DNA of 64,000 nucleotides. It comes from Gammaproteobacteria bacterium (GTDB lineage: Bacteria; Pseudomonadota; Gammaproteobacteria; Ga0077536). The translations under genes were made by a program, and so were the position numbers. Shown here piece by piece: positions 7,061-27,133 of this stretch. The notes beneath the pieces are model-generated. The model was given only the letters and a program-made list of their open reading frames with translations. It made no database searches and was not told where the DNA came from. The stretch spans positions 248,001-312,000 of the forward strand of contig JAJFJQ010000066.1 of the NCBI GenBank assembly GCA_021773835.1, read 5' to 3'. Position 1 is the first letter of the stretch. Each line of letters opens with the position of its first letter.

Positions 7061-8905
7061 TTAGCCATTTACTTCCTCTTCCGTTTCATCCACGCGCTCA
7101 AGCTCGGGTAGAAAGCCACCTGCTTGCATCGACCACAATTTCGCATAGTGTCCCTTGTTGGCAAGTAGCTCAGCATGGTTTGCGTCTTCCACAATTACCC
7201 CGTTATGGAATACCAAAATGCGATCGAGGTGCGATAGCGTGGACAATCGGTGCGCGATCACCATGACCGTCTTGTCCTGCATTAAATAAGACAAGCTCTC
7301 CTGGATGTGCCGCTCCGTCACGGAGTCCAATGAACTGGTTGCTTCATCCAGTACCAATATCTCGGCATCTTTGAGCACCGCTCTGGCCAACGCAATCCGT
7401 TGCCGCTGTCCACCCGAAAGTTTTACCCCGCGCTCGCCAACCAGTGACTCGTAACCGTCTTCTGTATCCATGATGAATTCGTGCGCATGTGCCTTTGTGG
7501 CTGCCTCAATCACCTCCTCATCAGAAGCATCGAGGCGGCCATAGCGAATATTCTCCATTAAGGTTCGATGAAATAACATGGGGTCTTGTGGAATCATGGC
7601 GATCGCGGCGCGTAGACTTTCTTGCGACACCGTCTGAATATCCTGCCCATCGAGCAAGATGCTGCCAGACTGCGGCTCAAACAATCGCAACAGTAGGTTA
7701 AGTATCGTGCTCTTACCGCTACCGGAGAACCCCACCAAACCGATTTTCTCTCCGGGTCGAATGGTAACGTTAAGATCCTGAAACACCGGTTTGTTCTCGG
7801 TATAGCTAAAATCGACGTGCTTAAACTCGATTGCACCAGCGCCTACGACCAGCGGTCTGGCATCAATATCGTCAATAACCTCGTGCGGTCGTACGATGAT
7901 ACTGACGCCGTCGTTGATATTGCCCACGTATTCAAAGAAGTCTAGAAACCGACGACTCAAACCACGCGCCTGTTCTATCAACAATAATGACAAACTCGCA
8001 GCCATCGCAAACTCGCCCACTGTCATTCCACCCGCGCTCCAGATCTTTAGCGCATAACCGATGATCCCGATCATCAAGGTCATTGCGGCCAGAAACTGAA
8101 ACCATCGGATCCGTTCCATATACCAGAAGGTTTCCCGCGCGCGCTTTACCTCTAGATTGAGATAACCCTCGAGATAGGAGCGCTCGAAATCGCGTCGCGC
8201 GAACAATTTCGCATTCATAATATTCGTCACCGAATCTACGATCTTGCCACTCACCAGCGAGCGAGCGGCCGCATAATCTCGAGCATAACGGCGACAGCGT
8301 TGCGCGAGGACATAGGAAATCGCCACATAGGCCGCTATCCAAGTCCCCAGCGCCAGCGCGAGTTTCACGTTCACCCCGATCAGCAATACCAACGAAACGC
8401 TAAACGCTATAACGAGCGGCCAAAAATCGAAGAGCACCGTCCACACTGTATGAGCGACACTCATCGACACCTCGGCGATCCGGTTGGCCAACGAGCCGGC
8501 GAAGTTACTCAGAAAATACCGCTGGGAGTGATGCTGTAAATAGGCAAATAGCTCTCGCCGCACGCGCCGCCGCAACGAAGGTCCAAGCACAACTAAGATA
8601 GCCCCACTAGCGCGTGAAAAGAGCACTACTCCAAGGTTTAGAAATCCGAATAACCATAATGGACCTTCAACCCCCGCCCACACGTCGCTTCCGATCTCAT
8701 TGGCAAATTCCACCGCATCCATGATTTGTTTGATCGCATACGGTAGCAACATCGAACAGGCAGACTGCCCGGCCTCCAAAAAGATCATCACGGCAACACT
8801 TAGGCGGTATATGCTCGCATAACGCAAACAAAAACCCGCCGCACTCGCGGGTAAGGGCGGCGCGTCCGCCGCCCGTTCATCGAAATTGCTTACGGCGTCA
8901 TCCAT
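7061..8905 (-). CDS. ABC exporter, fused membrane and ATPase domains
   Basis: A 614-residue half-transporter of the MsbA/multidrug exporter type: six transmembrane helices in the first ~335 residues and a nucleotide-binding domain after ~360. Motifs are complete: Walker A GFSGSGKST (392-400), LSGGQRQR signature, Walker B ILVLDEATSSLD and switch His in VIAHRLSTL. It would work as a homodimer in the inner membrane. Its substrate is not readable from sequence. Its position directly downstream of a lipid kinase and a sphingolipid-type desaturase makes a lipid flippase plausible (inference). The 57-base gap to the kinase gene shows no clear terminator. Confidence 0.92.
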   Translation of the reverse strand: MDDAVSNFDERAADAPPLPASAAGFCLRYASIYRLSVAVMIFLEAGQSACSMLLPYAIKQIMDAVEFANEIGSDVWAGVEGPLWLFGFLNLGVVLFSRASGAILVVLGPSLRRRVRRELFAYLQHHSQRYFLSNFAGSLANRIAEVSMSVAHTVWTVLFDFWPLVIAFSVSLVLLIGVNVKLALALGTWIAAYVAISYVLAQRCRRYARDYAAARSLVSGKIVDSVTNIMNAKLFARRDFERSYLEGYLNLEVKRARETFWYMERIRWFQFLAAMTLMIGIIGYALKIWSAGGMTVGEFAMAASLSLLLIEQARGLSRRFLDFFEYVGNINDGVSIIVRPHEVIDDIDARPLVVGAGAIEFKHVDFSYTENKPVFQDLNVTIRPGEKIGLVGFSGSGKSTILNLLLRLFEPQSGSILLDGQDIQTVSQESLRAAIAMIPQDPMLFHRTLMENIRYGRLDASDEEVIEAATKAHAHEFIMDTEDGYESLVGERGVKLSGGQRQRIALARAVLKDAEILVLDEATSSLDSVTERHIQESLSYLMQDKTVMVIAHRLSTLSHLDRILVFHNGVIVEDANHAELLANKGHYAKLWSMQAGGFLPELERVDETEEEVNG

Positions 8906-8962: not shown

Positions 8963-9913
8963 TTAACATTGCACAAACTGTGCGGTACTCGGACTAGTCA
9001 AGGTCACGGGTGTATCCGGCGCTGGTTGCAAAAACTCACCATCCAAATTGAATGGACCGGTCATCCGCAATTGAATTTGATCAACCGCAGCACTCCGATA
9101 GATGGCATTGGGTAAGCGTTCTTTATCCCTTCCGTATAAGATCCGGTAGGCGTGGCGCACCAAGCCATCAGCCGGGGATCGAATACTGGTGTATTTCAGC
9201 CGGCCCTCCCCATCACCCCAAAATGGCGAGCTGCCAAGAAAGATCTGGTGCAAGGTCGTCACCATAACGAGACTTAATCGTGTCTCCGGCTCCGATACCG
9301 CATCAAGATCGATGGCAATCGCATGACCACGAAGTAATTGGCTGCGAGAGAACAAAACCCCGCTTAAAACATACCCGAGAGTCAACGCGCCCGCCAAGGG
9401 ATCAGGGATCCATCTTTGCGGAAATAGCTGGCGGCGGAGCGTAATCGCGTCACAGATCGCTGCGGTACCGAAAAACATACCACATACGGCGCGACGCGCT
9501 GGATCGTACTCCACCCTAATGAGCGGCCGGGATACACAATGCTGTTCGACTTCGCCGCGCCCGACTACCGAGAAAAGCCGTCGCAGCGATGCGACCCGGT
9601 TGCCACGCAGTCCAACATCGGCGGCGATGGTATTCGACGTTCCACCCGGCAGGATTGCCAATTTGGGATGACTTGAATTCTCGCCGAGTTCGAAAATCTC
9701 GGTAAGTACCGCACTCACCGTGCCATCACCAGCATTGATCACGAGTAGCTCAATTCCCGCAGCCGCAAAATCGTTCAGCACGCTTTTTAATGCGCCGAAA
9801 TCGGTGAGTTCCCTATGTACGACATCGTCGTGTTGGTTAATAAATTCTCGAAACTTACCTAGTTTAGTGATGTTACGGCGGCTCACCGGGTTGCTGAGGA
9901 CTCCGATCTTCAT
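8963..9913 (-). CDS. Diacylglycerol-kinase-fold lipid kinase (candidate ceramide/sphingoid kinase)
   Basis: This 316-residue protein has the DAGK/sphingosine-kinase catalytic fold: an ATP-binding NAGDGTVSAVL block (60-70; first Gly of the usual GGDGT replaced by Ala), ILPGGTSNTIAADVG (87-101), and a C-terminal LDGEFLQP-like stretch near the end that matches the usual GE motif. Members phosphorylate lipid hydroxyls with ATP at the inner membrane. Its neighbours are a DEGS-type desaturase upstream and an ABC exporter downstream, so a ceramide or sphingoid base is a reasonable substrate. Diacylglycerol or undecaprenol cannot be excluded from sequence. Confidence 0.88.
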   Translation of the reverse strand: MKIGVLSNPVSRRNITKLGKFREFINQHDDVVHRELTDFGALKSVLNDFAAAGIELLVINAGDGTVSAVLTEIFELGENSSHPKLAILPGGTSNTIAADVGLRGNRVASLRRLFSVVGRGEVEQHCVSRPLIRVEYDPARRAVCGMFFGTAAICDAITLRRQLFPQRWIPDPLAGALTLGYVLSGVLFSRSQLLRGHAIAIDLDAVSEPETRLSLVMVTTLHQIFLGSSPFWGDGEGRLKYTSIRSPADGLVRHAYRILYGRDKERLPNAIYRSAAVDQIQLRMTGPFNLDGEFLQPAPDTPVTLTSPSTAQFVQC

Positions 9914-11140: not shown

Positions 11141-11986
11141 TTATTCGGTCTCATTGCCTTGCCCCCTCGCCCGGGCATTGAGAATCGACTCCACCAATAC
11201 TAGGTCTGCAGGCTTGTCGACGTCGATCGCTGCCTCCGCAAACGGCATTTCGATCGCGCGCGCCTCAAGTCCAAGCTTGTGTGAGAAAGTCGCCAAGGCA
11301 TCGGTCAGGGTAAGACGCCGACACACATAGCGCAGCAGGCTACGAACGCCAAGCGTGCGGATCAATCGCCATGGGCGCTTGCGATCGGCTTCCAGCCTGG
11401 TCCAATACCTCACAGCGATACGGGCATTAACCGTATTCAGCGAAAAGATATTACAACCACAATAAGCAGCGTCAGAGAATCTTAATAATGTCCGCGTCGA
11501 GCGCGGATAACGCCGAGATACTAAGTCTGCTCGTGCCACACCGACACAAACATCGCTATGGTCGCGCGCACTTTGGCAGAAATGATCAACCATATCGCGG
11601 TCGAGTAGCGGGTGATCTGCGGTCACGATCAACAACGGCAGCGCATCCTCGAATCGATCGCAGGCGCGCGATGCGCTCGCCGCCGGCGACATTGCCGCGG
11701 CTAAAAATTCCAAAGAGCCACGCTCGATTCGTTGCCTCACGGCTGGTGTGTCCTGCAATGAGGGTTCGCCGCATAACACGATCCGACCAACGTGCGCGCT
11801 GGATTCAATTGTCTGCAGAACACGGGTAAGCATCGGCGTTCCTGCGACGTCGACAAGACACTTATCGCTGATACCTGCTGCTCGGGCTACCGGATCGCAG
11901 TCACCGCGTCTTCCAGCCATAATTACGGCACAAAACTTTGTTGGCGTGGGTTTCACTTGGGCGGGCAAATCGATCGCTACCGTCAA
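11141..11986 (-). CDS. MobA-like nucleotidyltransferase
   Basis: A 281-residue protein with the NTP-transferase Rossmann-like fold: CAVIMAGRRGD (19-29; a modified nucleotide-binding loop), DKCLVDVAGTPMLTRVL with Lys42, and LIVTADHPLLD with the metal-binding Asp. The C-terminal part has a helical segment (SLLRYVCRRLTLTDALATF) and a conserved IDVDKPADL typical of the family. These enzymes transfer a nucleotidyl group to a phosphorylated sugar or alcohol. The exact substrate is not readable. Its start overlaps the end of lptG by four bases, so the two are translationally coupled, and it precedes the DEGS-like gene. A role in activating a lipid headgroup is my inference. Confidence 0.82.
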   Translation of the reverse strand: MTVAIDLPAQVKPTPTKFCAVIMAGRRGDCDPVARAAGISDKCLVDVAGTPMLTRVLQTIESSAHVGRIVLCGEPSLQDTPAVRQRIERGSLEFLAAAMSPAASASRACDRFEDALPLLIVTADHPLLDRDMVDHFCQSARDHSDVCVGVARADLVSRRYPRSTRTLLRFSDAAYCGCNIFSLNTVNARIAVRYWTRLEADRKRPWRLIRTLGVRSLLRYVCRRLTLTDALATFSHKLGLEARAIEMPFAEAAIDVDKPADLVLVESILNARARGQGNETE

Positions 11987-13056
11987 CCTAGGCGCCGCAT
12001 TAGGATCAGCGCAACTATAAACAAGAAGGCTGCTGGTGCAGTCGCCGTTACGGCCGGATTGATTTCCGCCAACAATCCGATTTGCGCAAGCATTTGGTCG
12101 ACCATGTAGAACACAATGCCGACGCCGGCACCAAACAACACTGGGCGACCAATCCCGCGACGATCGTGTGGTCCGAACACGAATGGGATCGCAAGCAAGA
12201 CCATCGCGAGTGTCGCAAACGGGACATTTAACTTACGCCACAATGCTAATTCGTAGCGGTCGGCCCGCTGACCACGGGCACGGAGATCACGCGCGTAATA
12301 ATACAGATCGCTAGGCGCTAGGCTCTCAGCATCGAGTTGAATAACCGCGCCTTGTGCCGGGCTCAAAAATGAATCCCATCTCAAGACGGGGAGGCGTTCA
12401 ACCGCAATCTTAAATCCGTTTATGCGTTTTCTAACGACATCTTTCAATAACCATGTGCCGTCGGTCTCGGGTTGCGCCTCGCGCGCTTCCGTAAACAGCG
12501 CCAATTCGCCGTCTTCATTAAACTCGTAGATCTCTATCTCAGTGGGAATGCGCCCATAGACCATGTCACGAATACTGATAAATCGCCGGCCGTCGCGAAA
12601 CCAAAAATTCGTACCGCTATCTTTGCGCACGACGATATCACCAGCGATAGCTAACGCTCGATCACGCCAGGCGCGCTCGCCTAAGTTCGGACTGATAAAC
12701 TGTGCAAAGATAACCACAATCAATATTAATTGACCGGTGGCCTTAAGAATGGACCAACCGATCTGACGGATCGGCACGCCCGCGGCACGCATTACCGACA
12801 GCTCGTTGCCGTGCTCAAGAATGCTCAATGCGATGAGACAACCCAATAGCGCGCTGACTGGCACCAGCCATAAGGCGCGTTCTGGGGTGGTCAAAATAAC
12901 GAATATGACCGCGTCGAACACATCGTAGTTACCCAAATTAATATCATCGAGCTCCTCGACAAAATCCAGGAAACTGAAAACCGACACCAAAACAAGCAGC
13001 ACGAGTACAAACCCTTGGCCCAGATGCATTCGAATATGGCGATCTAATATCTTCAT
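11983..13056 (-). CDS. lptG: LptG-type permease of the LPS/lipid export complex
   Basis: A 357-residue YjgP/YjgQ-family membrane protein with three N-terminal helices, a periplasmic beta-jellyroll (about 120-265) and three C-terminal helices. MKILDRHIRMHLGQGF at the start and GHGNELSVMRAAGVP-type sequence (here EHGNELSVMRAAG) in the cytoplasmic coupling loop identify LptG. With LptF and the LptB ATPase it extracts LPS from the inner membrane. It follows lptF by 19 bases and overlaps the nucleotidyltransferase downstream. The position inside a sphingolipid locus, rather than beside pepA, is unusual. Confidence 0.92.
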   Translation of the reverse strand: MKILDRHIRMHLGQGFVLVLLVLVSVFSFLDFVEELDDINLGNYDVFDAVIFVILTTPERALWLVPVSALLGCLIALSILEHGNELSVMRAAGVPIRQIGWSILKATGQLILIVVIFAQFISPNLGERAWRDRALAIAGDIVVRKDSGTNFWFRDGRRFISIRDMVYGRIPTEIEIYEFNEDGELALFTEAREAQPETDGTWLLKDVVRKRINGFKIAVERLPVLRWDSFLSPAQGAVIQLDAESLAPSDLYYYARDLRARGQRADRYELALWRKLNVPFATLAMVLLAIPFVFGPHDRRGIGRPVLFGAGVGIVFYMVDQMLAQIGLLAEINPAVTATAPAAFLFIVALILMRRLG

Positions 13057-13075: not shown

Positions 13076-14197
13076 TCACTCGACCGGAACAGCCGTCTTG
13101 GCGGCTCCAAGCAGCTGTTGATCGGCAGCCCGTCGAAAGGCCCACCTCGGAACTAGGATCAAAGCCGCAATTAATAGGGCCAACGCGAATTGGACCCACC
13201 AGATCCCCGGAAACTCACCGACCACCCCTGTCTCGACCCAGGTTTTCGCCATTGCGGTTAGGTTGTAATAGATCACATAGACCAACACGGCCCCGATCGT
13301 CTTGGTATAGCGAGAGCTGCGTGGCGCAGTACGACTGACAACCACCGCAAGCATGCCGAGTAAAATCGTAGAGATGGGCGTCGATAGCCGCCATTGAAAC
13401 TCGGCTATATCCAATGCCTGATTCGAGCGTGCTAGAACTGCAGTCGGTGCCGCCTTACGTTTATAACCAACCGTTGCTGAGTCTGGGTTACTCAGCCGCA
13501 GTTTCATTTGTTTAAACTTCGCCAACCCTTTGTCCGCCGCACCTCGGGGACCAAGGAAGTAGACGTGGACGTCAGATAAAATCAATAGGCGTTTACCGCT
13601 GATCTCTTCGAAGATTTGCTGTCCAGATTTGGCGTAAATGATGTGAATAATGCCGTTGCGTTCCCCTCGGATAAATATGCGATTTAACAGACCCGCGTCT
13701 TTGTCGACATCCTCTACAAAGATCGTGCGTTCACGTTGCTCACTATCATAAAAATTTGAGCTTTCGAGCTTATCGAGTTCTATCTCTGACTCGGCCTTCG
13801 CCTTGATCCAATAGCTTTGTTCATACGCGAGTGGCCGCCCAAATATCGAGAAACACGCAACTACCAAAGCCAATAAACAGGAAATACCGAGCACCACGCG
13901 CATTACGCGGGCGTTTCCAATGCCACTCGCCCGTACAACAATAATCTCGGAGCGACTCTCGAGTCGCCCGAGTCCGAGAACAATAGATAAATACAGGGCA
14001 ATTGGTAGCAGTACCTCAAGCGCGATCACCATTTTGATTAAAATGAATGACGCGAGGGTATCGAGCTGGAGTAGGCCGTCAACGGCATACGACAGATAAC
14101 GGCCCGAACTGTACCCAACGAAAATTACGATCAGTACGGCGGAAATCGTCAGCAGCGGTTTGAGTACTTCTCTAGTAATGTATCGGTCTATAATCAA
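13076..14197 (-). CDS. lptF: LptF-type permease of the LPS/lipid export complex
   Basis: A 373-residue YjgP/YjgQ-family membrane protein that starts MIIDRYITREVLKP, the typical LptF beginning. It has the six-helix plan with a central periplasmic domain (about 125-270), and the coupling-loop motif RSEIIVVRASGIG near residue 85. It would form the transmembrane channel of the Lpt extractor with LptG. It is the first gene of the minus-strand run that continues through lptG, the nucleotidyltransferase, the DEGS-like gene, the lipid kinase and the ABC exporter. The 135-base gap before the divergent CDP-alcohol phosphotransferase should hold both promoters. Confidence 0.92.
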   Translation of the reverse strand: MIIDRYITREVLKPLLTISAVLIVIFVGYSSGRYLSYAVDGLLQLDTLASFILIKMVIALEVLLPIALYLSIVLGLGRLESRSEIIVVRASGIGNARVMRVVLGISCLLALVVACFSIFGRPLAYEQSYWIKAKAESEIELDKLESSNFYDSEQRERTIFVEDVDKDAGLLNRIFIRGERNGIIHIIYAKSGQQIFEEISGKRLLILSDVHVYFLGPRGAADKGLAKFKQMKLRLSNPDSATVGYKRKAAPTAVLARSNQALDIAEFQWRLSTPISTILLGMLAVVVSRTAPRSSRYTKTIGAVLVYVIYYNLTAMAKTWVETGVVGEFPGIWWVQFALALLIAALILVPRWAFRRAADQQLLGAAKTAVPVE

Positions 14198-14332: not shown

Positions 14333-15526
14333 GTGAATAAAAATAGCAGATCCAGTTCCCCGGTTGATCCAATAAACGCACGACCACATTTAGTCATTGT
14401 TGGTGAGTGTGATATCAAGCTATGGAGTCTAGAGCCGGCTGAGCGTCATCGCCGATCATTCGCAAAGGCCGGTGTTAATGTTGACGAAAGTGAGTTCGAT
14501 GGCGAAAGTGCGACCGTAGTGGCGGTTCGGGCAGATTATTTGCTCGGACCGGATCTTATTGTCGCTATCGCAGCACGCTCTAATACTGTGTTGACAACTA
14601 CCGAGGGCGATATTGCGGTCGCCGCCAACGTCCCAGCTGCACAACTCAAAACCGTATTGGGGTCGCTGCAAGCAACCCGAAGCGATCCAACAATATTGAA
14701 CGAAACAGGCTTCGATGTAATGAGCCCAGCCGAGCTCGGATCAAGCTACGACAACGCGTTGCGTAAGCGTGCTGCCCCGTTTGTATTGTCATATTCGGAC
14801 ACGTCCATCGACGATCTCGAGACTAAAACATTTGGCGCTGCGTATAAGGGCGCGACGGACTTCGTTACAAAATGGTGTTGGCCGAAGCCCGCGCGTATCG
14901 TGACACGATGGGCCGCGGCACGGGGGATAAGTCCAAATAGCGTCACCACAATGAGCCTTGTCTTGACGCTAGTCGCGTTGTGGTTATTTACCAAGGGACA
15001 CTTTCTAAGTGCAATTCCCATTGCTTGGGCGATGACTTTTCTCGATACCGTCGACGGTAAACTCGCTCGAGTAACGGTAACGTCATCGGCTTGGGGCAAT
15101 ATCTACGACCATGGCATTGATCTCATCCACCCGCCATTTTGGTGGTATGGGTGGTATGTCGGCGTGCTACCAATCGCATCACCATCGGTAGCCTCGTCTT
15201 TAGAACCTGCCTTGTGGGTGATTCTTGCCGGCTATCTCATCGGACGTCTACTCGAAGGATTGTTCGTACTTGCTTTTAAGATTGAAACGCATATTTGGCA
15301 ACCCGTCGACTATTTTTTCCGCACAATAACCGCCCGGCGTAATCCCAATCTTGCGATCTTAACCGTCGCAAGCCTCGTCGGAAGGCCGGATTTGGGATTC
15401 CTGGGTGTTGCGGCCTGGACCATCATATCGTTAATCTTCCACGCTATTCGATTGCTTCAGGCGGCGCTCATTCATGTTCGAGGCGGCCGCATAGAGTCGT
15501 GGTTAAATCCACAGACACAGTCGTAG
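14333..15526 (+). CDS. CDP-alcohol phosphotransferase with an extra N-terminal domain
   Basis: A 397-residue protein starting at GTG 14333, preceded by a GAGAAG ribosome-binding site. Residues ~20-190 form a soluble domain of uncertain function, possibly a degenerate nucleotidyltransferase remnant. The membrane domain has the full signature: Asp238, Asp241-Gly, Ala-Arg at 245-246, Gly255, Asp259 and Asp263, with 5-6 helices. The segment RGISPNSVTTMSL precedes it as in phosphatidylglycerophosphate and inositol-phosphate synthases. It joins a CDP-activated alcohol to a second alcohol, releasing CMP. The acceptor is unknown; a ceramide or inositol-phosphate headgroup is possible given the locus. 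A cytidylyltransferase gene follows. Confidence 0.88.
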   Translation: MNKNSRSSSPVDPINARPHLVIVGECDIKLWSLEPAERHRRSFAKAGVNVDESEFDGESATVVAVRADYLLGPDLIVAIAARSNTVLTTTEGDIAVAANVPAAQLKTVLGSLQATRSDPTILNETGFDVMSPAELGSSYDNALRKRAAPFVLSYSDTSIDDLETKTFGAAYKGATDFVTKWCWPKPARIVTRWAAARGISPNSVTTMSLVLTLVALWLFTKGHFLSAIPIAWAMTFLDTVDGKLARVTVTSSAWGNIYDHGIDLIHPPFWWYGWYVGVLPIASPSVASSLEPALWVILAGYLIGRLLEGLFVLAFKIETHIWQPVDYFFRTITARRNPNLAILTVASLVGRPDLGFLGVAAWTIISLIFHAIRLLQAALIHVRGGRIESWLNPQTQS

Positions 15527-15664
15527 CACCGGCGCTTGCACGCAAGCCCAATTACCGACAGGATCGCGGTCGCAAAAATCCTCTTCCAACGCCACCGCCG
15601 CTATTCGCATGTTTCGATATTGACCGCGGCCATTGCGATAACCGTTATTACGACCGAGGGACTA

Positions 15665-16393
15665 ATGAAAGCGATAATTCTAAGCGCAGGCCAAGGCGGG
15701 CGCCTGCTGCCGTTGACCGAAACGCTACCTAAATGCCTCCTGTCGATCGGTAATAAGACAATACTTGCGCACCAGATAGAAAGTCTAAACCAGTGCGGGA
15801 TAAGCGAGATCACCGTAGTAACGGGTTTCGCCGCCGGGGCGGTAGAAACCGCATTGCGTGAACTTTCAGCGGCCACTCAGGCGCCAAATTGCGTATTTAA
15901 CCCATTTTTTAACGTCGCCGATAATCTCGCGAGTTGCTGGATGGCACGCCACGTAATGACCGGCGATTTCGTTCTGCTCAATGGCGACACGGTGTTCGAA
16001 CCCGCTGTTTGCGAAACCTTATTGCGCGCGCCCACGGCACCGGTATGCTTAGCAATAGATCATAAATCGGAATACGACTCGGACGACATGAAGGTCCGAC
16101 TTGCCGGAACCAAACTGCTCGAAGTTGGAAAATCTATCGAGCCTCAGAATATCGACGGTGAATCAATCGGTATGATGCGATTTATTGGCGACGGTCCAGC
16201 GCATTTTGTCCAGATCTTGGACCAGGTCATGCGCACACCGAATAGTTTAAATTGGTGGTACCTAAAGGCCATCGGCATCCTTGCTGAACGAGACTTGGTC
16301 CAAACACAATCGATTGAAGGTCAGCGCTGGGGGGAAGTTGACTTCCTGCAAGACCTCGAAAACGTTCGACAGCTATTTGTTGACGGTGGCTAA
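15665..16393 (+). CDS. LicC/GlmU-like cytidylyl- or sugar nucleotidyltransferase
   Basis: The 242-residue product from ATG 15665 starts directly with the nucleotide-binding signature MKAIILSAGQGGRLLPLTE, with Lys23 in LPKCLL; an in-frame extension upstream looks non-coding. LLNGDTVFE carries the metal-binding Asp and DDMKVRL the second conserved region. A WWYLKAIG-EVDFLQDLE end is common in phosphocholine and inositol-phosphate cytidylyltransferases. It would make a CDP- or other NDP-activated headgroup. Its position just after the CDP-alcohol phosphotransferase suggests it supplies that enzyme (inference). Confidence 0.85.
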   Translation: MKAIILSAGQGGRLLPLTETLPKCLLSIGNKTILAHQIESLNQCGISEITVVTGFAAGAVETALRELSAATQAPNCVFNPFFNVADNLASCWMARHVMTGDFVLLNGDTVFEPAVCETLLRAPTAPVCLAIDHKSEYDSDDMKVRLAGTKLLEVGKSIEPQNIDGESIGMMRFIGDGPAHFVQILDQVMRTPNSLNWWYLKAIGILAERDLVQTQSIEGQRWGEVDFLQDLENVRQLFVDGG

Positions 16394-16410
16394 GCGTCGG
16401 CGCTTGGGCG

Positions 16411-17124: not shown

Positions 17125-17307
17125 TAGCGGGATCACACGCAATTGGGCGATCGAAAGTAGCTCTGACGGAACACGACAATATCCTGAACGTCGCCTATCA
17201 TAGCAGTACATTTAACGTAATCGATGACCGGATCCCGTAGTCCGAATAAACAGTTCGGCCAGCCGCAGACTTACGCATATTGCAACGCCCACACGCGAGT
17301 TTTCGTA

Positions 17308-19169: not shown

Positions 19170-20363
19170 CTAGGCCGCCGATGATGTTGCGTAGTCCTTT
19201 TGCGCGTCGGCAAAGGCCGCGCCAATCTGATCGATTTGTTCGGTCGTATGAGCCGCACTGACGCTACAGCGAAGCAGGTAACTTCCATTTGGGGTCGCAG
19301 GCGGGAAAACGAGATTGACATAAACACCACGTGCTAGCAGACCACTCCATAAGGCCAACGCTTCGTCGACATCGCTCAGCATTGCGGCAATGACTGGGCT
19401 CGGCTCGGGGCCAAGACTCAAGCCAAGTTCAGACAAACTATCGTAGAGGCGGTTTGCGTTGTTCCACAATTGATCACGTAGCTCTGGGCTACGCTGCAAG
19501 ACAGCAAGCGCAACCCGGGTTGAGGCGATCACCGACGGGCACATCGAGGCGGTAAATACGTACGGTCGACTGGACACGCGAACCAATTCCAACTCTGGCA
19601 GATCGCTTACACAGAACCCACCCGTTGCGCCGAGGCTCTTGCTGAAGGTCCCCGTGATGAAGTCGACGCTATCATGCTCGTCGGTCACCTCGACCAAGCC
19701 GCGCTCGCCAAGGACGCCCAGCGAATGCGCCTCGTCCACTAACAAATAGCCACCATACTCACGTTTGGCGGCGGCAATTTCAGCCATTGGCGCGCGGTCA
19801 CCGAGCATGCTGTAGATACCTTCTGTAACAATCAACGCGTTTGCGGCACGTTCGCCAAGACGCCGTAGGCGCTTTGCCAAATCATCGGCATCGTTGTGCC
19901 GAAAGCGGATCACTTCGGCGCCACTCATCTGACACCCATCATAAATACTGGCGTGACAGTCGCCATCGATGACAATCACATCGTCTCGATCAGTTAACGC
20001 CGAGAGGATCCCAAGATTGGCTAAATAACCAGTAGAGAACACTATCGCACCACGGCGTCCGAAGAAATCCGCGATGTCCCGCTCCAAGGCGATATGGCTG
20101 GCAAACGTCCCATTGGCCATACGCGATCCGGTGGTACCAGTGCCTTCGGCCTTCACCGCGTCGCGGGCGGCCTCAACGCACTCTGGATGAAACGTTAAAC
20201 CAAGGTAGTTGTTAGTGCCGGCAAGGATCATTTGGCGACCGTCTACAATCGCTTCGGTAGCGGATATCATCCGCTCGACAACAACATTAAATGGTTGCGC
20301 ACCGGTTTCATCGAGCGCTTTGCGTCGGTTTGCTAGCATCTCGAACTTACTAAATAGACTCAT
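19170..20363 (-). CDS. spt: Serine palmitoyltransferase (alpha-oxoamine synthase family)
   Basis: A 397-residue PLP enzyme of the AONS family. Visible features: Asn-Asn-Tyr-Leu-Gly (51-55), GTGTTGSR (74-81), the PLP-stacking His137, Asp210-Glu-Ala-His213, and the Schiff-base Lys242 in TFSKSLGATGG. The family includes BioF, Kbl, HemA and Spt. The four-base overlap with a dedicated acyl carrier protein and the CerR-type, FAAL and N-acyltransferase neighbours favour Spt, which condenses serine with an acyl thioester to 3-ketosphinganine in the cytoplasm. It starts at ATG 20363, coupled to the ACP stop. Confidence 0.92.
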   Translation of the reverse strand: MSLFSKFEMLANRRKALDETGAQPFNVVVERMISATEAIVDGRQMILAGTNNYLGLTFHPECVEAARDAVKAEGTGTTGSRMANGTFASHIALERDIADFFGRRGAIVFSTGYLANLGILSALTDRDDVIVIDGDCHASIYDGCQMSGAEVIRFRHNDADDLAKRLRRLGERAANALIVTEGIYSMLGDRAPMAEIAAAKREYGGYLLVDEAHSLGVLGERGLVEVTDEHDSVDFITGTFSKSLGATGGFCVSDLPELELVRVSSRPYVFTASMCPSVIASTRVALAVLQRSPELRDQLWNNANRLYDSLSELGLSLGPEPSPVIAAMLSDVDEALALWSGLLARGVYVNLVFPPATPNGSYLLRCSVSAAHTTEQIDQIGAAFADAQKDYATSSAA

Positions 20364-20663: not shown

Positions 20664-21614
20664 CTATAGCCGGTCACGATCCTCCGCTAGGGCCAAGCGT
20701 AATCCCTCGGCCAATGAAATCCGCGGTTGCCACCCGGTGGCCGCAGTGAAGTCATTATTATCACATACCCAGCGAGGATGCCTGAGTTCGTTGAGTTTCC
20801 ATGGAGTAAGCATCGGCTCGTAACCAGCCATACGGGCCAATCGAAGGTTTGCCGCAGCGACGAGATCTAGCAGCAATGGAGGTACCGGTATGCGATAAAC
20901 ACGCCGTTGCAAGGTATGCGTTGCAATCTCTATAACATCGCCCATGGTGTACCCGTCGCTACGGTCGTCGTGTAGCTCATAGATACCTCGTACAGGGGTC
21001 GTACTACTTAGCCACTGTTCAACGGCGGCGACGAGATCGGTGACGAACAGCAGAGAAAAACGGGCGCCCCGACTACCCCAGACCGGCGCAACACCACGCG
21101 ACATCGCTTTAAACAAAGGCATCAACTCCCGGTCACCCGGTCCATATACCGCAGGGGCCCGAAGTGCCAACCAATTCATATCCCCTGCGCCCTCCTGCAA
21201 GGCTAGTTCGCCGGCTCGCTTACTTTGAGCGTAGGGGGAAACTTCTGGCTGGGTGGCAGCTAGCGAAGAGATCAGGAGAAACCGACCAATACCGTGGTCG
21301 CGCTGCGCTTTGCGAACCAGCAGCTCGACTGCGTCCGCATTATTCGCGAAGAATGTTGAACGCCGCGCGCCACGAACCGCCCCGGCGCAATGCACCAACG
21401 CATCCACCGATTGCAAAAGACGCTCGATACTCGGCTCATCTTGGAGACTGCCGACAACGCGCTCGACATTTTGCGGTAACGGCTTGTCGCTCGAAGTTGG
21501 GCGCACGAGTACCCGCACTTGATAGCCACCTTGCACCAAGGAACGCGTGATCGCACCACCGACGAAGCCGGTGGCGCCTGTAACGGCGATACTGCGGATC
21601 GGCGTGGCCGTCAA
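20664..21614 (-). CDS. cerR: NAD(P)-dependent reductase of the CerR (3-oxo-ceramide reductase) type
   Basis: A 316-residue extended short-chain dehydrogenase/NAD-dependent epimerase. The Rossmann motif is GATGFVG (13-19) and the catalytic pair is Tyr128-x3-Lys132 in PYAQSK, with LLISSLAA just before it. In bacterial ceramide synthesis a protein of this family (CerR) reduces the 3-keto group to the hydroxyl, taking the place of the eukaryotic ketosphinganine reductase. The assignment rests mainly on its position between FAAL and ACP-spt. Sequence alone would give only a general epimerase/dehydratase call. Confidence 0.87.
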   Translation of the reverse strand: MTATPIRSIAVTGATGFVGGAITRSLVQGGYQVRVLVRPTSSDKPLPQNVERVVGSLQDEPSIERLLQSVDALVHCAGAVRGARRSTFFANNADAVELLVRKAQRDHGIGRFLLISSLAATQPEVSPYAQSKRAGELALQEGAGDMNWLALRAPAVYGPGDRELMPLFKAMSRGVAPVWGSRGARFSLLFVTDLVAAVEQWLSSTTPVRGIYELHDDRSDGYTMGDVIEIATHTLQRRVYRIPVPPLLLDLVAAANLRLARMAGYEPMLTPWKLNELRHPRWVCDNNDFTAATGWQPRISLAEGLRLALAEDRDRL

Positions 21615-21679: not shown

Positions 21680-23434
21680 CTAACCCGCTGCCAGCAGGTG
21701 CGAAGATTGGCCCCAGTTTGTCCGATCAATAAAATCCTCGCGTGTGCGAAAACGCGAGAGTTTTCCGGATGAGGTCCGGATGAGGGTGTGCAGCGGCACC
21801 AGGTCAATTATGCAATCAATACCTAAATCGGCGCGTATTGCCCGGTCCATGCGCTCAATCAAATTACGACGTTTCTCGACGTCTGCCTCGCGGCACTGGA
21901 TCACTATCACTGCCTGCTCGACGCCGTCCGCCCCCGGAACGGAAAACGCAGATGCATCTCCCGGGCGAACTTCCGGCTCTTGTTCCGCTAAATATTCCAG
22001 ATCTTGGGGCCAGATATTACGGCCGTTGATTATGATCAAGTCTTTCTTACGACCCGTGATCATGATGTCACCATTTGCGCGGTAGCCGATATCGCCTGTA
22101 TCGAGCCAACCGTCTTCGGACAACACATCGGGGTGGTTACCCCCGTCGCCGAAGTATCCCGACATGACACTCGGGCCGCGTACATACACACTACCGCAAT
22201 ATCGCTCCGCTAGCTCACGGCCGCTTTCGTCTCGGACTTCTACGTGGTGACCAGGAAGTGGTTTGCCACAATTTACGAATTGGTTACTGCGTGAGATTTG
22301 CGATCCGACATTGTTGTCGACCGGCACGGCGCGCTGAGATTCACTCAAATGCTTGCCGTCTACCCATTCCGAACAAAGGCCTTGGTTTAATGGCGCGAAA
22401 CTGACAGCCAAGGAAGATTCGGCAAGGCCATAACATGGTAGAAACGCGCGTTTATCGAACCCACTCGGGGCCAACTCTTCGGCAAATTTAAGGAGCGGCT
22501 CCGATCGGATCGTCTCGGCACCGACGCCGGCCACCCGCCACGCGCTCAGATCGAGCATTTCCGCGTCTTCCTTCCGCAATCTGCGCGCACATAACTCGTA
22601 ACCAAACGGGGGGCCAAACGAGATCGTCGCCTTGCTTTCGGACATTCGGACAAGCCACTGTCGTGGACGCATCGCAAACTCACGTGTGCCGAGATAGTCA
22701 ACGGACATTTGCGACACGATTGGCGCTAACACAAGACCGACGAGCCCCATGTCGTGATAGTACGGCAACCACGACACCGCGCGATCTTTTGGTGTCATTT
22801 GCAAATGATCAATCGTGCACGACAGATTACTCATTACCGCGCGCTGCGTAATCATTACCCCTCGCGGAAAACGGGTACTACCGGATGTGTACTGCAAGTG
22901 TGCTAATTCACCAGCCTCGAGCGGTTCGAGATTTACTGGCGTCGCCGTAAAATGTGAAAACGCTTCTGCCGATCCGATAAACCTAAGGTGCAGTCCTTCG
23001 GAAGCCTCGGCCAGAAATGCGCCGTACTCCGACGGCCCGATACAGACCCGAGCTTGCGAGTCGGTTAACAATCGGCGGAGATGTCCGATGTACTCGTTAC
23101 CACCACCGAGCTGTAGTGGCGGCGGGACCGGAACTGGAACGAGCCCGGCATACTGGCACGCGAAAAAGAATCGTTGGAAATTCGGATTTGTTTCTGCAAC
23201 AAGTGCGACTCGATCGCCGCGCTTTAATCCGAGAACATGCAAACGGTAGGCAATGGCGTGAGCATCGTCGCGCAGCTCCGAGTACGGTAATACTGCGAAT
23301 AGCTCGCCCGTGCCGGTGTAGAAATTACAACCGGTATCGCCCTGGGCCGCGTAATCCAAAGCCTCTGCAAGGGTAGCGAAATCCGCGTATCTTCGTACTA
23401 GGTGATGTTCAGTTGGCGTCGGTATTACGCTCAC
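21680..23434 (-). CDS. acsR: Fatty acyl-AMP ligase / acyl-ACP synthetase
   Basis: A 584-residue adenylate-forming enzyme of the FAAL group. It starts at GTG 23434 behind a strong GGGGGAG ribosome-binding site. The phosphate-binding A3 motif is QYTSGSTRFPRG (181-192); later blocks are LPYYHDMGLVG, CYGLAESS, LDTGDIGY and GRKKDLIIINGRNIWPQDLE. It activates a free fatty acid with ATP and would pass it to the operon's own ACP, as AcsR does in Caulobacter. It is the first gene of the minus-strand ceramide operon and faces the ceramide synthase gene across a 458-base gap. Confidence 0.92.
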   Translation of the reverse strand: MSVIPTPTEHHLVRRYADFATLAEALDYAAQGDTGCNFYTGTGELFAVLPYSELRDDAHAIAYRLHVLGLKRGDRVALVAETNPNFQRFFFACQYAGLVPVPVPPPLQLGGGNEYIGHLRRLLTDSQARVCIGPSEYGAFLAEASEGLHLRFIGSAEAFSHFTATPVNLEPLEAGELAHLQYTSGSTRFPRGVMITQRAVMSNLSCTIDHLQMTPKDRAVSWLPYYHDMGLVGLVLAPIVSQMSVDYLGTREFAMRPRQWLVRMSESKATISFGPPFGYELCARRLRKEDAEMLDLSAWRVAGVGAETIRSEPLLKFAEELAPSGFDKRAFLPCYGLAESSLAVSFAPLNQGLCSEWVDGKHLSESQRAVPVDNNVGSQISRSNQFVNCGKPLPGHHVEVRDESGRELAERYCGSVYVRGPSVMSGYFGDGGNHPDVLSEDGWLDTGDIGYRANGDIMITGRKKDLIIINGRNIWPQDLEYLAEQEPEVRPGDASAFSVPGADGVEQAVIVIQCREADVEKRRNLIERMDRAIRADLGIDCIIDLVPLHTLIRTSSGKLSRFRTREDFIDRTNWGQSSHLLAAG

Positions 23435-23892
23435 GAATTCAACTCCCCCGATTAAATAACGGCTACTTTGGAGTTTCCGTTGCTGTCGTGGCGGACCACC
23501 AGCGGTAACTGCAAACCATGCGCATTATTCACTTAAATACCTTAATGGGCCGCGCTTTATGCGACCCGCCCAATTTTTTTGTCAACATCCCAAAGCGCGT
23601 CGGTACGACTCCATGCATGCGGCCTCGGTCGAAGGGATAACCCTCCAACCCCTGGATTCAGTGGGCAGCAAGCCGTTTTTGGGCTCTTTATTAGTCCCGT
23701 CACAATACCCGGAGGAACTGTAACATTAGGTTAATATTACTTTAATTTTCGGTTGTTGTTGTAATTTAAGAGTTAACGAATCCTCTCAACCCCCGGATTT
23801 TAGGGGAGAAACTGGCACCATACAAGGTCTGGAAGGGTATTAGTTTAACCATAAACGGTTGGTGCAGCCCCATAATTTTGCAGGAGAACGAC
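23435..23892 (-). other. Divergent intergenic region between the two ceramide operons
   Basis: This 458-base gap separates the divergent acyl-AMP ligase and ceramide synthase genes and is the longest non-coding stretch in the window. It is AT-rich in the middle (around 23725-23775), where promoters for both directions may lie. Two similar segments of about 28-30 bases occur at 23638-23665 and 23777-23806. Both share CAACCCC-GGATT followed by a G-run and can each form a small hairpin (CCCC...GGGG in the second). CAGGAG at 23881-23886 is the ribosome-binding site of the TTG-started ceramide synthase. I see no small ORF or tRNA. Confidence 0.6.
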
Positions 23893-25041
23893 TTGCTAAA
23901 AATCATTCCGGTGGAAGGTTATCGCGCAATGGGACGCTTTATTGACGTACCGTGGCCAATATATGCGGCAGATCCCCACTGGGTCCCACCGCTAAAGCTC
24001 GAACGACGCGTCCATTTCAGTCGTCACAACCCCTATTTCGAACACGCCGAATGGCAAGCATGGGTGGCGTATCGGGGACAACGCGCGGTCGGTCGAATCA
24101 GCGCCCAAATTGACCAACTCCGTCTTGATCAAGGTAGCGACCGCATGGGCGCCTTTGGCATGCTTGAAGCAGAGGACAGTAGCGAGGTTTTTGCCGCATT
24201 GTTTGACACGGCTGAAGCGTGGCTGCGTTTGAAAGATATAGAAACCATCCAAGGGCCTTTCAATTTATCGATTAACGATGAATGCGGTTTGTTGGTTGAA
24301 GGATTCGATTCCCCGCCGTCGGTCATGATGGGGCATGCACGGCCCTATTACTCGACGCACGTAGAACGCAGCGGGTATGCAAAAGTGAAAGATGTCGTTG
24401 CGTACAGAATGCATCCAGACTTCCCGATGACGCCGACAATGGAAAAGATCGTTCGGCGCTCGACCCGTGTGCGCAAAGGACAGTTTAAATTGCGATTATT
24501 GCGGCGCGAACAAATCTTCGATGAATTCGAACTGCTGCGCGATATATTCAATGATGCGTGGCGAGACAACTGGGGCTTCGTACCGTTCACCGCGGCGGAG
24601 TTTAAAGACGTCGGAACCATGTTGAAATCACTAGTCGACAAGAACTTCATTCAGATCGGTGAAATCGACGGCGAACCCGTTTCGTTTATTGTATGTCTCC
24701 CCAACATCAATGAATCGATTGCCGATTTAAACGGACGACTTTTTCCGTTCGGCTGGATGAATTTACTATGGCGCTTAAAGGTTTCGCACCCCAAATCCGT
24801 AAGGGTCGCGCTAATGGGAATTCGCAAACCCTATCAGGGTGGGCTAACCGGAAGCGGTATTTCACTAGCGATGATTGAGAGCATAAGACAGCCTGTTCTT
24901 GGACACGGCGCGACAGAAGTAGAAATGGGATGGATACTCGAGGAAAACAAATCCATGCGAAACATAATCGAGGGAATCGGCGGGGTTGTGGCTAAACGTT
25001 ACCGAGTTTATGAAAAATCGCTAGCCACTAAGGCTGCTTAG
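23893..25041 (+). CDS. bcerS: Bacterial ceramide synthase-type N-acyltransferase (GNAT fold)
   Basis: About 382 residues from TTG 23893, chosen because CAGGAG lies 6 bases upstream and there is no suitable ATG; TTG 23878 is an alternative. The N-terminus (YRAMGRFIDVPWPIYAADPHWVPPL) and GRISAQIDQL, FDSPPSVMMGHARPYYSTHVERSGY and EFELLRDIFNDAWRDNWGFVPFT match a large family of GNAT-like proteins that includes the Caulobacter ceramide synthase. The reaction is N-acylation of the long-chain base using an acyl thioester; it is unrelated to the eukaryotic ceramide synthase. It has no signal peptide. A TAM41-like gene follows 17 bases later. Confidence 0.9.
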   Translation: MLKIIPVEGYRAMGRFIDVPWPIYAADPHWVPPLKLERRVHFSRHNPYFEHAEWQAWVAYRGQRAVGRISAQIDQLRLDQGSDRMGAFGMLEAEDSSEVFAALFDTAEAWLRLKDIETIQGPFNLSINDECGLLVEGFDSPPSVMMGHARPYYSTHVERSGYAKVKDVVAYRMHPDFPMTPTMEKIVRRSTRVRKGQFKLRLLRREQIFDEFELLRDIFNDAWRDNWGFVPFTAAEFKDVGTMLKSLVDKNFIQIGEIDGEPVSFIVCLPNINESIADLNGRLFPFGWMNLLWRLKVSHPKSVRVALMGIRKPYQGGLTGSGISLAMIESIRQPVLGHGATEVEMGWILEENKSMRNIIEGIGGVVAKRYRVYEKSLATKAA

Positions 25042-25058: not shown

Positions 25059-26027
25059 GTGACTATGGCATTTCCGAATCGTGCAGGTGGGTTGTCGGGA
25101 CTGCTCGACGCTGAAGTGCGCTACCCAGTGTCGCGGGCCTCGATGGCGATGACCAATGCGCTGAAGAACCGCTACGGCGATGCCGTACTCGGCATCGTCT
25201 ACTATGGCTCGTGCTTTCGTTCCGGCACTGAGAAGAATGGAATTTTAGACATCTTCGTGATTGTCGATGACTACCGAGAAGTCTATCTTAAAAATACGCT
25301 CGCGCTAGTAAACAAATTGTTGCCGCCGAATGTCTTTTATTACGAATTGGACTTCGAAGGTGAGACGCTACGGACAAAATACGCCATCATTTCGCTAGAC
25401 CAATTCGAGCAACGTTGTTCTTCCAAATGCTTCCATACGTTTTTTTGGGCACGGTTCGCGCAACCATGCGCGCTGACCTATGTGCGCGACGAAAACGTAC
25501 GCACAAGGTTGGTCGCTTCGCTCAGACGAGCGATCGAGACATTCGTTGCGCGCGTGTTGCCGCTGTTGCCTCCGCGTTTCGACGCCGAGACATTGTGGCA
25601 TGCAGGCTTGTCTGCGAGTTATCGAACAGAATTACGACCGGAGTCACCAGGCGCATCAGCGCGGTTTTTTGATAGTAGCGCAGACCGCTATGGTGATGTG
25701 ACGAAGATGGTACTCGCCGAACGCAGCGATATCGAATTGCGCGACGACGAGCCCTCAAAGACAGAATTTGTCGCCAATATTCCATCGACGCAGCGGTGGT
25801 TAGCGCGCCAAGCATGGCGGCTACGTCGTCCCCAGGGAAAGCTGATTAACCTACTTCGGATAATGAAGGCAGCGTTCACCTTTGATGGCGGCGTCGACTA
25901 CGTATTATGGAAAATCGAGCGTCACTCAGGAATAAAGGTCGAGGCAACGCCAATGCTACGCCGCCACCCCTTGCTGACGTGTTGGCCGACAGTGTGGCGC
26001 CTATATCGCGCCGGTGCATTCCGTTAA
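25059..26027 (+). CDS. TAM41/Mmp37-like nucleotidyltransferase (candidate lipid-phosphate cytidylyltransferase)
   Basis: A 322-residue protein (GTG 25059; ATG 25065 is an alternative). I recognise the pattern of mitochondrial phosphatidate cytidylyltransferase TAM41: a nucleotidyltransferase Gly50-Ser51 after IVYYG, then Asp64 in ILDIFVIVDD, with the Asp-Asp pair at 70-71, followed by NVFYYELDFEG and KYAIISLDQFE, then a long helical C-terminal part with LLPPRF. TAM41 makes CDP-diacylglycerol from phosphatidic acid and CTP and is unrelated to bacterial CdsA. In this position, between ceramide synthase and a desaturase, ceramide phosphate is a candidate substrate. No transmembrane helix is evident. 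The similarity is by eye and should be treated as probable. Confidence 0.72.
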   Translation: MTMAFPNRAGGLSGLLDAEVRYPVSRASMAMTNALKNRYGDAVLGIVYYGSCFRSGTEKNGILDIFVIVDDYREVYLKNTLALVNKLLPPNVFYYELDFEGETLRTKYAIISLDQFEQRCSSKCFHTFFWARFAQPCALTYVRDENVRTRLVASLRRAIETFVARVLPLLPPRFDAETLWHAGLSASYRTELRPESPGASARFFDSSADRYGDVTKMVLAERSDIELRDDEPSKTEFVANIPSTQRWLARQAWRLRRPQGKLINLLRIMKAAFTFDGGVDYVLWKIERHSGIKVEATPMLRRHPLLTCWPTVWRLYRAGAFR

Positions 26028-26044: not shown

Positions 26045-27133
26045 ATGGCCGATGAGCAACAGGGTTTCAGGCAGGCATCGCCGCGACCGATATCCGCCCG
26101 CGAGGCGAAGGCACTAGTCGAAGATCTGTTTATCCTACGACCCGCAATCTATTGGATCGATTTTCTTTTAAGCGCAACCGTCGCGTATGCCGGAACTGCA
26201 ATCTACCTAAAAGCGCCGACCTACTCGGCATCGCAAATTACAGCATTTATTGTTGCCGGCATCGCGCTATTTCGCATCGCAACGTTTATGCACGAAATCG
26301 TCCACATGCGCAAAGGCCACATGCGCCTATTTAAACTCGTCTGGAACTGCATTGCCGGGATCCCGTTGTTGACGCCGTCGCTCTTCTATACAACCCACGC
26401 GGATCACCACAGCAATCGCTACTATGGGACGCCAGCGGACGGTGAGTATCTACCTTTTGGTGCGACCCGCCCGAGCGAGATCGTTCGATTTATCGCGATG
26501 ATCCCGCTGATCCCAATGTTGGCGGTTGCGCGCGCCGGGGTATTGGTGCCGCTATCGTTGGTGCTGCCGAAACTGCGCCGATGGTTACTTGCCAGAGCGT
26601 CCGCAGCGGTGATTAGCCCGACTTATCAGCGCCGCAATGTGCCGCAGATCTGGGACCCATTGTGGCTAGCAACAGATCTCGCGTGTTTTGTCTGGGTCGG
26701 ATCGATAGCGCTGTTGACTATCCGTGGCGTGATTGCGCCCGGTACATTTGCAATGTTGTATCTGTTGATCGTCTACGCCATCGGTCTGAATTGGTTACGG
26801 ACCCTCGCGGCCCACCGCTATCGTAACGCTGGCGGAGAAGTTAGCCACTCCGATCAGGTACTCGATTCGATCAATATCACCGGACATCCGCTACTCACGG
26901 AATTGATATTCCCGGTTGGGTTGCGTTACCACGCGTTGCACCACTTACTACCGTCGCTGCCGTACCATGCGCTAGGGAAAGCGCACACGCGACTCATGGC
27001 GGAGCTGCCTAAAGAATCATCCTACCGCCTGACTAATTGCCCGAATACATTCGCGGCAATTCGACAACTTTGGCGGGACGCAAAGGCATCGGACGACGGG
27101 GCCGCCGTGATCCGATTGTGGCGTCAAGCGTGA
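26045..27133 (+). CDS. Membrane fatty-acid/sphingolipid desaturase or hydroxylase
   Basis: A 362-residue integral membrane di-iron protein with three histidine boxes: HEIVH (83-87), HADHH (118-122) and HALHH (296-300), plus an extra HRYRN at ~257-261. About four to six hydrophobic helices are present. It belongs to the fatty acid desaturase superfamily but not to the DEGS group found at 10 kb. It could desaturate or hydroxylate the acyl chain or long-chain base. It follows the TAM41-like gene by 17 bases and is the last gene of the plus-strand ceramide operon; it converges with the cupin gene. Confidence 0.87.
   Translation: MADEQQGFRQASPRPISAREAKALVEDLFILRPAIYWIDFLLSATVAYAGTAIYLKAPTYSASQITAFIVAGIALFRIATFMHEIVHMRKGHMRLFKLVWNCIAGIPLLTPSLFYTTHADHHSNRYYGTPADGEYLPFGATRPSEIVRFIAMIPLIPMLAVARAGVLVPLSLVLPKLRRWLLARASAAVISPTYQRRNVPQIWDPLWLATDLACFVWVGSIALLTIRGVIAPGTFAMLYLLIVYAIGLNWLRTLAAHRYRNAGGEVSHSDQVLDSINITGHPLLTELIFPVGLRYHALHHLLPSLPYHALGKAHTRLMAELPKESSYRLTNCPNTFAAIRQLWRDAKASDDGAAVIRLWRQA

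Follow-up and report, generated by a model that had tools for sequence, protein, structure and literature searches.

How ceramide-1-phosphate (C1P) is converted into ceramide phosphoglycerate (CPG) is an open step in print (PMC12275187, PMC13228409), and the locus described here raises the question of whether a nucleotidyltransferase of the Tam41 type takes part in it. The window, that is the whole stretch of 64,000 nucleotides analysed, comes from a gammaproteobacterial contig and contains, at 25059-26027 on the forward strand, a frame of 322 amino acids. A preliminary description of this DNA had called the product a TAM41-like cytidylyltransferase, had noted its position beside a ceramide synthase, and had drawn a route leading from ceramide through C1P and CDP-ceramide to a phosphoceramide headgroup. 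The Tam41 resemblance is borne out by family profiles and by the predicted fold, and the best reading is that the protein is the CpgC of its organism.

A ceramide-lipid island

The genes of the island are listed by position, with the evidence for each label. L130 designates a locus from a genome of the same phylum as the window.

7061..8905, reverse: MsbA-like ABC transporter (PF00664 and PF00005; MsbA-type models under their cut-offs)
8963..9913, reverse: lipid kinase, CpgB (ceramide kinase)-like (PF00781, 49.9 bits; homologs adjoin the Tam41-like gene elsewhere)
11141..11986, reverse: CofC/MobA-like nucleotidyltransferase, CC_1153-like (PF12804, 47 bits; co-occurrence)
11983..13056, reverse: LptG-type permease, LptG2-like (TIGR04408, 313 bits, over the cut-off of 240)
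13076..14197, reverse: LptF-type permease, LptF2-like (TIGR04407, 291.5 bits, over the cut-off of 230)
14333..15526, forward: CDP-alcohol phosphotransferase with an N-terminal extension, CpgA (CC_1159)-like (PF01066, 40 bits; motif DTVDGKLAR; L130 homolog in the CC_1159 slot)
15536..16393, forward: nucleotidyltransferase, CpgD (CC_1152)-like (PF00483, 48.9 bits, match from residue 45)
17224-18450, 18501-19094 and 16411-17211: three further genes, labelled epoxide hydrolase and NUDIX (by reading) and histidine phosphatase (Pfam)
19170..20363, reverse: serine palmitoyltransferase, SPT (NF047599, 607.6 bits, over the cut-off of 500; SPT in the PDB at E 7.3e-122)
20664..21614, reverse: NAD-dependent epimerase/reductase, CerR-like (PF01370, 83 bits; order as in L130)
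21680..23434, reverse: fatty acyl-AMP ligase, AasR-like (NF006624, 773 bits, over the cut-off of 600)
23878..25041, forward: presumed bacterial ceramide synthase, bCerS/cerS-like (preliminary description and gene order)
25059..26027, forward: Tam41-like nucleotidyltransferase, probable CpgC (CC_1161) ortholog and proposed CTP:ceramide-1-phosphate cytidylyltransferase (family profile, predicted fold, gene context)
26045..27133, forward: fatty acid desaturase/hydroxylase-type membrane enzyme (PF00487, 87.3 bits; next gene downstream of the Tam41-like gene)

The Tam41-like frame is flanked at 17 nt on either side, by the ceramide-synthase frame upstream and by the desaturase frame downstream. The name bCerS is one that we take over as an assumption, from the label in the preliminary description and from gene position; the protein is without any Pfam or NCBIfam match, and its L130 homolog occupies the slot inferred for CC_1154 (cerS). 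A second ceramide-synthase homolog, 52% identical to the island copy, is encoded on another contig of the window's genome (G000:C21:64639-65778). The lipid kinase and the CDP-alcohol phosphotransferase that had been placed in the island are both present at the positions listed. The CofC-like protein scores 21.4 bits against the CofC model TIGR03552, under its cut-off of 105. The CpgD-like frame may have its true start near 15665, and its NCBIfam matches include IPCT/DIPPS at 61.5 bits, far under the cut-off of 580. The MsbA-like transporter is a possible ceramide-lipid flippase.

Two more genes of the window deserve mention. A desaturase at 9986-11044 (reverse) gives a match to the N-terminal family of sphingolipid delta-4 desaturases (PF08557, 28.3 bits, cut-off 23) and may modify the ceramide backbone; no relative of known structure was found for it at E<=0.01, and none of the frames in the 80 contig loci considered below had it as best match. 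At 953-2206 (reverse), a receiver-like domain is fused to a serine/threonine kinase, with PF00072 just under its cut-off and PF00069 over it.

Relationship to Tam41

Searched alone against Pfam, the window protein retrieves a single family, PF09139 (Tam41_Mmp37), with a score of 12 bits and an E-value of 0.13, short of the family cut-off of 24 bits. Scans with PF09139 at E<=1e-3 returned no match in the window's own genome or in 14 control genomes, Caulobacter among them. Across 398 genomes one match was obtained at this threshold and none over the cut-off, so the PF09139 model alone misses the Tam41-like group. A search of the PDB with the single sequence likewise gave no match at E<=10.

Two alignments of relatives were more informative. 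A1 holds 14 sequences, the window protein and 13 of the 14 other matches from a class sample (one was excluded for masked letters), in which the gene occurs in 15 of 274 genomes; A2 holds 66 wider relatives. PF09139 is matched by 7 of the 14 members of A1 at E<=1 (best 4.9e-11) and by 46 of the 66 members of A2 at E<=0.01 (best 8.1e-10), and no other Pfam family is matched by A2 members at E<=0.01. The profile search that had been suggested as a check thus supports the family assignment through the relatives, although the single protein stays below the cut-off; we therefore call it Tam41-like, of the same fold and probably of similar action, and not a PF09139 member. The A1 profile retrieves the Schizosaccharomyces pombe Tam41 structures 6ig2 and 6ig4 at E 1.8e-8 and 1.9e-8, the first other entry following at 0.025, and the A2 profile retrieves 6ig2 at E 5.9e-6. 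The Tam41 of a Firmicutes bacterium (7ecd) is absent from the A1 profile matches at E<=10 and from the A2 profile matches at E<=1.

The fold points the same way. An AlphaFold2 model of the window protein (pLDDT 84.6, pTM 0.83) contains a nucleotidyltransferase (NTase) core and presents the NTase plus winged-helix architecture of Tam41 structures, with 224-227 residues aligned to three Tam41 entries. These rank at the top in VIA-align: 7ecd with CTP-Mg (Z 19.1, rmsd 2.9, 227 aligned), then S. pombe 6ig4_B (Z 17.5) and 6ig2_A (Z 17.1), against Z 7.2 and 115 aligned residues for the first non-Tam41 structure, the aminoglycoside nucleotidyltransferase 6un8_A. In Foldseek, the first four matches are 6ig2/6ig4 chains, with E-values from 7.2e-11 to 1.0e-9, TM-scores of 0.50-0.53 relative to the query and rmsd values of 6.1-6.8, and 6un8_A comes next at E 1.9e-5; 7ecd is missing among the first 50 Foldseek matches and was found by VIA-align only. 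The resemblance of the window protein to Tam41 is therefore real, both at the level of the fold and as a remote relationship in sequence.

The motif pattern noticed in the preliminary description, YYGS...LDIFVIVDD, belongs to conserved blocks. In A2, G50, D64, K107, R132, Y188, R193 and E195 are invariant (66/66), S51 is found in 65 and D70 in 59 of the 66 sequences. When the A1 profile is read by eye against the printed SpTam41 alignment, Y-G-S, D, K-Y, G-R-F, S-Y, R and E match. Two positions of the three-acid NTase site were mapped: the first acid is D64, and position 66, where the second acid of the usual pair would stand, is Y or F in 65 of 66 sequences, the acid being absent. Tam41 reportedly retains a single one of the three NTase acids, and a bacterial Tam41 is reported to make CDP-diacylglycerol (CDP-DAG) (PMC11646218). 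Tam41 is described as having an NTase domain and a winged-helix domain, with CTP lying between the two, and a basic membrane helix at the C-terminus (PMC7018664). Residues 243-322 of the window protein hold 16 K/R and 4 D/E, with helices predicted, which is in keeping with such a basic helix. The protein is probably peripheral to the membrane.

Correspondence with the Caulobacter CPG pathway

In Caulobacter, the published gene order (PMC11324152) runs from the ceramide genes CC_1165-1162 (spt being 1162) through CC_1161, the kinase 1160, the CDP-alcohol domain protein 1159 and the phosphoesterase 1158 to LptF2/LptG2 (1156-1155), the remaining ceramide gene 1154 and the CofC-like 1153. The L130 order is AasR, CerR, SPT, then Tam41-like gene, kinase and CDP-alcohol phosphotransferase, then phosphoesterase, LptF, LptG, a second phosphotransferase, ceramide synthase and CofC-like gene. 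It follows the published numbering except for the second phosphotransferase, the comparison covering all these genes but CC_1163 (ACP), CC_1157 and CC_1152. The window and L130 copies of the Tam41-like protein share 40% identity. By position, through the L130 order, and by its single copy per genome, the Tam41-like gene appears to be the ortholog of CC_1161 (CpgC), an assignment made from gene order; the window's own arrangement differs.

This correspondence brings in a body of published genetics. CC_1161 is needed for the conversion of C1P to CPG, and its mutants are without CPG and CPG2, with moderately raised ceramide (PMC11324152). CpgB is the ceramide kinase (PMC10331486, PMC12275187), CpgD activates phosphoglycerate (PMC12275187), and CpgA is placed at the step from CPG to CPG2, its proposed substrate being CDP-glycerate from CpgD (PMC11324152, PMC12275187). 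CC_1159 (CpgA) is dispensable for CPG, and the mutant of the CofC-like CC_1153 still makes CPG and is devoid of CPG2 (PMC11324152). CpgC itself is put at C1P to CPG by a mechanism called unidentified in a 2025 paper (PMC12275187) and in a 2026 preprint (PMC13228409).

The preliminary description knew of no described CDP-ceramide pathway. This has to be qualified, since nucleotide-activated ceramide was already proposed in 2024, in the form of an NDP-activated ceramide that CC_1161 might make (Olea-Ozuna et al. 2024, PMC11324152). In the open-licence literature, no paper was found on CDP-ceramide, on TAM41 with bacterial ceramide or on Tam41 in proteobacterial sphingolipids, nor any assay of the CpgC step forming nucleotide-activated ceramide.

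Co-occurrence across genomes

A phylum sample of 398 genomes, the window's own included, was searched with E cut-offs of 1e-6 for the Tam41-like protein, 1e-10 for the ceramide synthase, 1e-5 for the kinase and the CDP-alcohol phosphotransferases (the island gene and L005, another one of the window's genome), 1e-8 for the CofC-like protein and 1e-15 for the phosphoesterase. The Tam41-like gene was found in 27 genomes, with one match each; at most 5 candidates were scored per genome in this search, so some gene-negative genomes may be misses. All 27 have a ceramide synthase, against 43 of the 398 genomes overall (hypergeometric 4.5e-31, a value that ignores shared descent). The ceramide context first described for the gene holds and is not due to chance. 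Among viral contigs there was one pattern match and no relative.

The 16 ceramide-synthase genomes without the Tam41-like gene served as a control group. The lipid kinase is present in 27/27 genomes with the gene against 1/16 without it, and lies within 471 bp of it in 25 of the 27; in the window's genome the two genes are separated by about 15 kb, and in G013 they stand on different contigs. Homologs of the CofC-like nucleotidyltransferase occur in 27/27 against 0/16 genomes at E<=1e-8. In 12 of the 27 the best-matching CofC-like gene is more than 300 kb away from the Tam41-like gene or on a separate contig, so that linkage alone cannot explain this co-occurrence. The CpgA-like CDP-alcohol phosphotransferase was found in 10/27 against 0/16 genomes, and thus was not found at E<=1e-5 in 17 of the 27. 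The statistics ignore descent except within one family (f204), where a hand count of 10 gene-positive and 8 gene-negative genomes gave 10/10 against 1/8 for the kinase (Fisher p 2.5e-4) and 10/10 against 0/8 for the CofC-like gene (2.3e-5). The CofC-like gene therefore looks core by co-occurrence, and the CDP-alcohol phosphotransferase does not.

Two other candidates were set aside. The CC_1158-like metallophosphoesterase, considered as a core partner, occurs in 12/27 against 3/16 genomes (Fisher p 0.11) and was not found in the window's own genome at E<=1e-15. L005, considered as a missing transferase, has matches in 33 of the 43 ceramide-synthase genomes, gene-positive and gene-negative alike; these are mostly weak (26-38 bits), with two better ones in G604 (84.9 and 69.3 bits).

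Gene neighbourhoods

Neighbourhoods were compared in 80 contig loci. These are the best-scoring 80 of at least 582 relatives, and the gene-order counts consequently lean to nearer relatives. A kinase frame directly precedes the gene (end within 600 nt, same strand) in 61 of the 74 loci whose upstream stretch reaches 700 nt or more. The 13 others are L023, L039, L059 and L070, which share the window's own arrangement, L080 and L081, where the open frame of the kinase overlaps, L101, where a desaturase intervenes, and L040, L042, L049, L060, L062 and L063, without a kinase match at E<=1e-5. Linkage to the kinase is also seen in contigs titled Desulfobacterota and Nitrospirota groups.

In the 41 of these best 80 loci that have at least 9.3 kb upstream, the kinase was found in 36, LptF in 33, LptG in 33, the CDP-alcohol phosphotransferase in 31, the ceramide synthase in 28, the CofC-like gene in 27, the phosphoesterase in 25, CpgD in 24 and a TagD-type protein in 4. 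Homologs of the three further window genes (epoxide hydrolase, NUDIX and histidine phosphatase labels), found in 2 of 41 loci each, provide an internal negative. A ceramide-backbone gene is absent from the contig stretch in 9 of the 41 and present in 43 of all 80 loci, many contigs being short. Within the 41, the presence of the CDP-alcohol phosphotransferase is coupled to that of a cytidylyltransferase for the head group (CpgD or TagD-type): 27 loci have both, 9 neither, and 4+1 are discordant (Fisher 1.8e-5). The TagD-type protein is a CTP_transf_like protein (PF01467, from a Pfam run on L072) of L068, L072, L089 and L096, where CpgD is missing; its presence in place of CpgD hints at another CDP head group.

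Some loci show peculiarities. In L055, L082, L086, L087, L090 and L095, a Mito_fiss_Elm1 gene (PF06258, identified by Pfam in L090) follows downstream of the Tam41-like gene at a median distance of about 1.1 kb between midpoints, on the same strand in 6/6. In L039 (3380-4685) the Tam41-like gene is broken into two reading frames, so that it is a pseudogene or else wrongly assembled. L130 carries a second CpgA-resembling phosphotransferase (16124-17335) inside one cluster. Such second copies were considered as a special CPG enzyme; the extra copies in L031, L032, L041 and L130 give no separate candidate, because they share the same motif type, DTVDGKLAR, which takes the form DSVDGKLAR in the second copy of L130.

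Proposed role and alternatives

The best reading, which we consider rather probable, is that the window protein is the CpgC of its organism and a Tam41-fold CTP:C1P cytidylyltransferase making CDP-ceramide. Ceramide would be made by SPT, CerR, AasR and bCerS and phosphorylated to C1P by the lipid kinase. With CTP-Mg bound between the NTase and the winged-helix domain, the Tam41-like enzyme would move CMP from CTP to C1P, yielding CDP-ceramide and pyrophosphate. A further putative transferase would make CPG by handing the ceramide phosphate of CDP-ceramide on to glycerate or phosphoglycerate, CpgD and CpgA would add a second phosphoglycerate, and the LptF/G-type permeases would export the lipid. 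The conserved site and the coupling to ceramide synthase and kinase are observed here and the Tam41 fold is predicted; the kinase activity, the CpgD activity and the requirement of CC_1161 for CPG have been published for Caulobacter; the substrates CTP and C1P, the CDP-ceramide product, the steps thence to CPG and the export are what we infer. A CDP-ceramide product would agree with the fold, with the kinase as partner and with the phenotype of the published mutant. Moreover, adding glycerate straight onto C1P is described as energetically not very favourable (PMC11324152), which argues for activation first. Points that weigh against this reading are the PF09139 score of the single protein below the cut-off, the missing PF09139 match in Caulobacter, the Foldseek TM-scores of no more than 0.50-0.53 to SpTam41, and the 9 of 41 loci whose contig stretch shows no ceramide-backbone gene.

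The route as originally drawn, said to be complete on paper, does not survive in that form. It ended on the island phosphotransferase, which corresponds to CpgA and hence to the step from CPG to CPG2, and which the majority of gene-positive genomes (17/27) appear to do without. CpgA as the last step falls because CC_1159 is dispensable for CPG and because CpgA tracks the head-group cytidylyltransferase and not the Tam41-like gene. No transferase co-occurring with the Tam41-like gene was seen in its place among the candidates, the CpgA-like gene being in 10/27 genomes and L005 showing no link. This leaves room for a different chemistry, in which CpgC would make CPG by using CTP or another NTP on another pathway acceptor, e.g. 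glycerate or phosphoglycerate, or by joining glycerate to C1P directly without free CDP-ceramide. The published models, with their unspecified mechanism for CpgC (PMC12275187, PMC13228409), and an earlier proposal that CC_1161 itself attaches glycerate (reported in PMC11324152) are compatible with it, as is the lack of a co-occurring transferase. We nevertheless judge it unlikely: the described Tam41 enzymes are CTP:lipid-phosphate cytidylyltransferases (PMC11646218, PMC7018664), the basic C-terminus is kept, and phosphoglycerate is already activated by CpgD (PMC12275187).

The nearest solved structures are CDP-DAG synthases, and a bacterial Tam41 does make CDP-DAG (PMC11646218), which would suit a second CDP-DAG synthase with true Tam41 activity on phosphatidic acid (PA), feeding anionic phospholipids in ceramide producers. 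A separate CdsA is however encoded in the window's own genome, so ordinary CDP-DAG does not need the Tam41-like gene; the gene is moreover confined to bCerS genomes (27/27 in the phylum sample) and paired with the kinase, and the Caulobacter mutant loses CPG and CPG2 (PMC11324152). This makes such an activity improbable. Less credible still, and in our view very improbable, is an NTase-fold protein that is inactive or regulatory and is required by a complex of CPG enzymes, not for catalysis. The loss of the second usual NTase acid would agree with it, but active Tam41 is also reported with only one acid (PMC11646218), and seven residues are invariant across the 66 relatives.

The CofC-like gene is a puzzle. 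Co-occurrence marks it as core, yet the Caulobacter mutant still makes CPG, which does not agree with a simple three-gene CPG route. A broader proposal, which we put forward tentatively and hold somewhat less probable than its opposite, is that a Tam41-fold branch dedicated to sphingolipids makes CDP-ceramide, a liponucleotide with its own enzyme, and forms an obligate module of three genes together with those of the ceramide kinase and the CofC-like protein, which co-occur with it in genomes of Pseudomonadota, CpgA and CpgD being optional, and that the CofC-like protein acts in the core head-group step and not only from CPG to CPG2. Within the open-licence literature, so far as the sources consulted go, no statement was found of the co-occurrence of these three genes or of the uncoupling of CpgA, and both are apparently new. 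Under the Tam41-type reading, a single protein together with CTP and C1P suffices for a direct test of the step from C1P to CPG.

Comparison with known systems

The closest functional counterpart is Caulobacter crescentus CpgC (CC_1161/CCNA_01219). The L130 homolog lies between spt and the kinase in the same ceramide context, and the published InterPro domain of CC_1161 hints at a CDP-DAG synthase (PMC11324152). The window gene differs in adjoining bCerS, with the kinase some 15 kb away. Mitochondrial Tam41/TAMM41, represented by the S. pombe structures 6ig2 and 6ig4 (Z 17.1-17.5), shares the NTase plus winged-helix fold, the site residues and the basic C-terminus, whereas identity is about 14% and the window-type gene is tied to ceramide genes and not to cardiolipin synthesis. 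The Firmicutes bacterium Tam41 (7ecd) is the best VIA-align match over 227 residues, but at 16% identity, and the acceptor of the published enzyme is PA. Finally, CdsA (PF01148) is alike in the proposed type of reaction, CTP with a lipid phosphate, whereas it is an unrelated multi-helix membrane protein (PMC7018664). If the proposed activity is correct, CMP transfer of the Tam41 type would provide bacterial sphingolipids with a counterpart to the CDP-DAG route of phospholipids.
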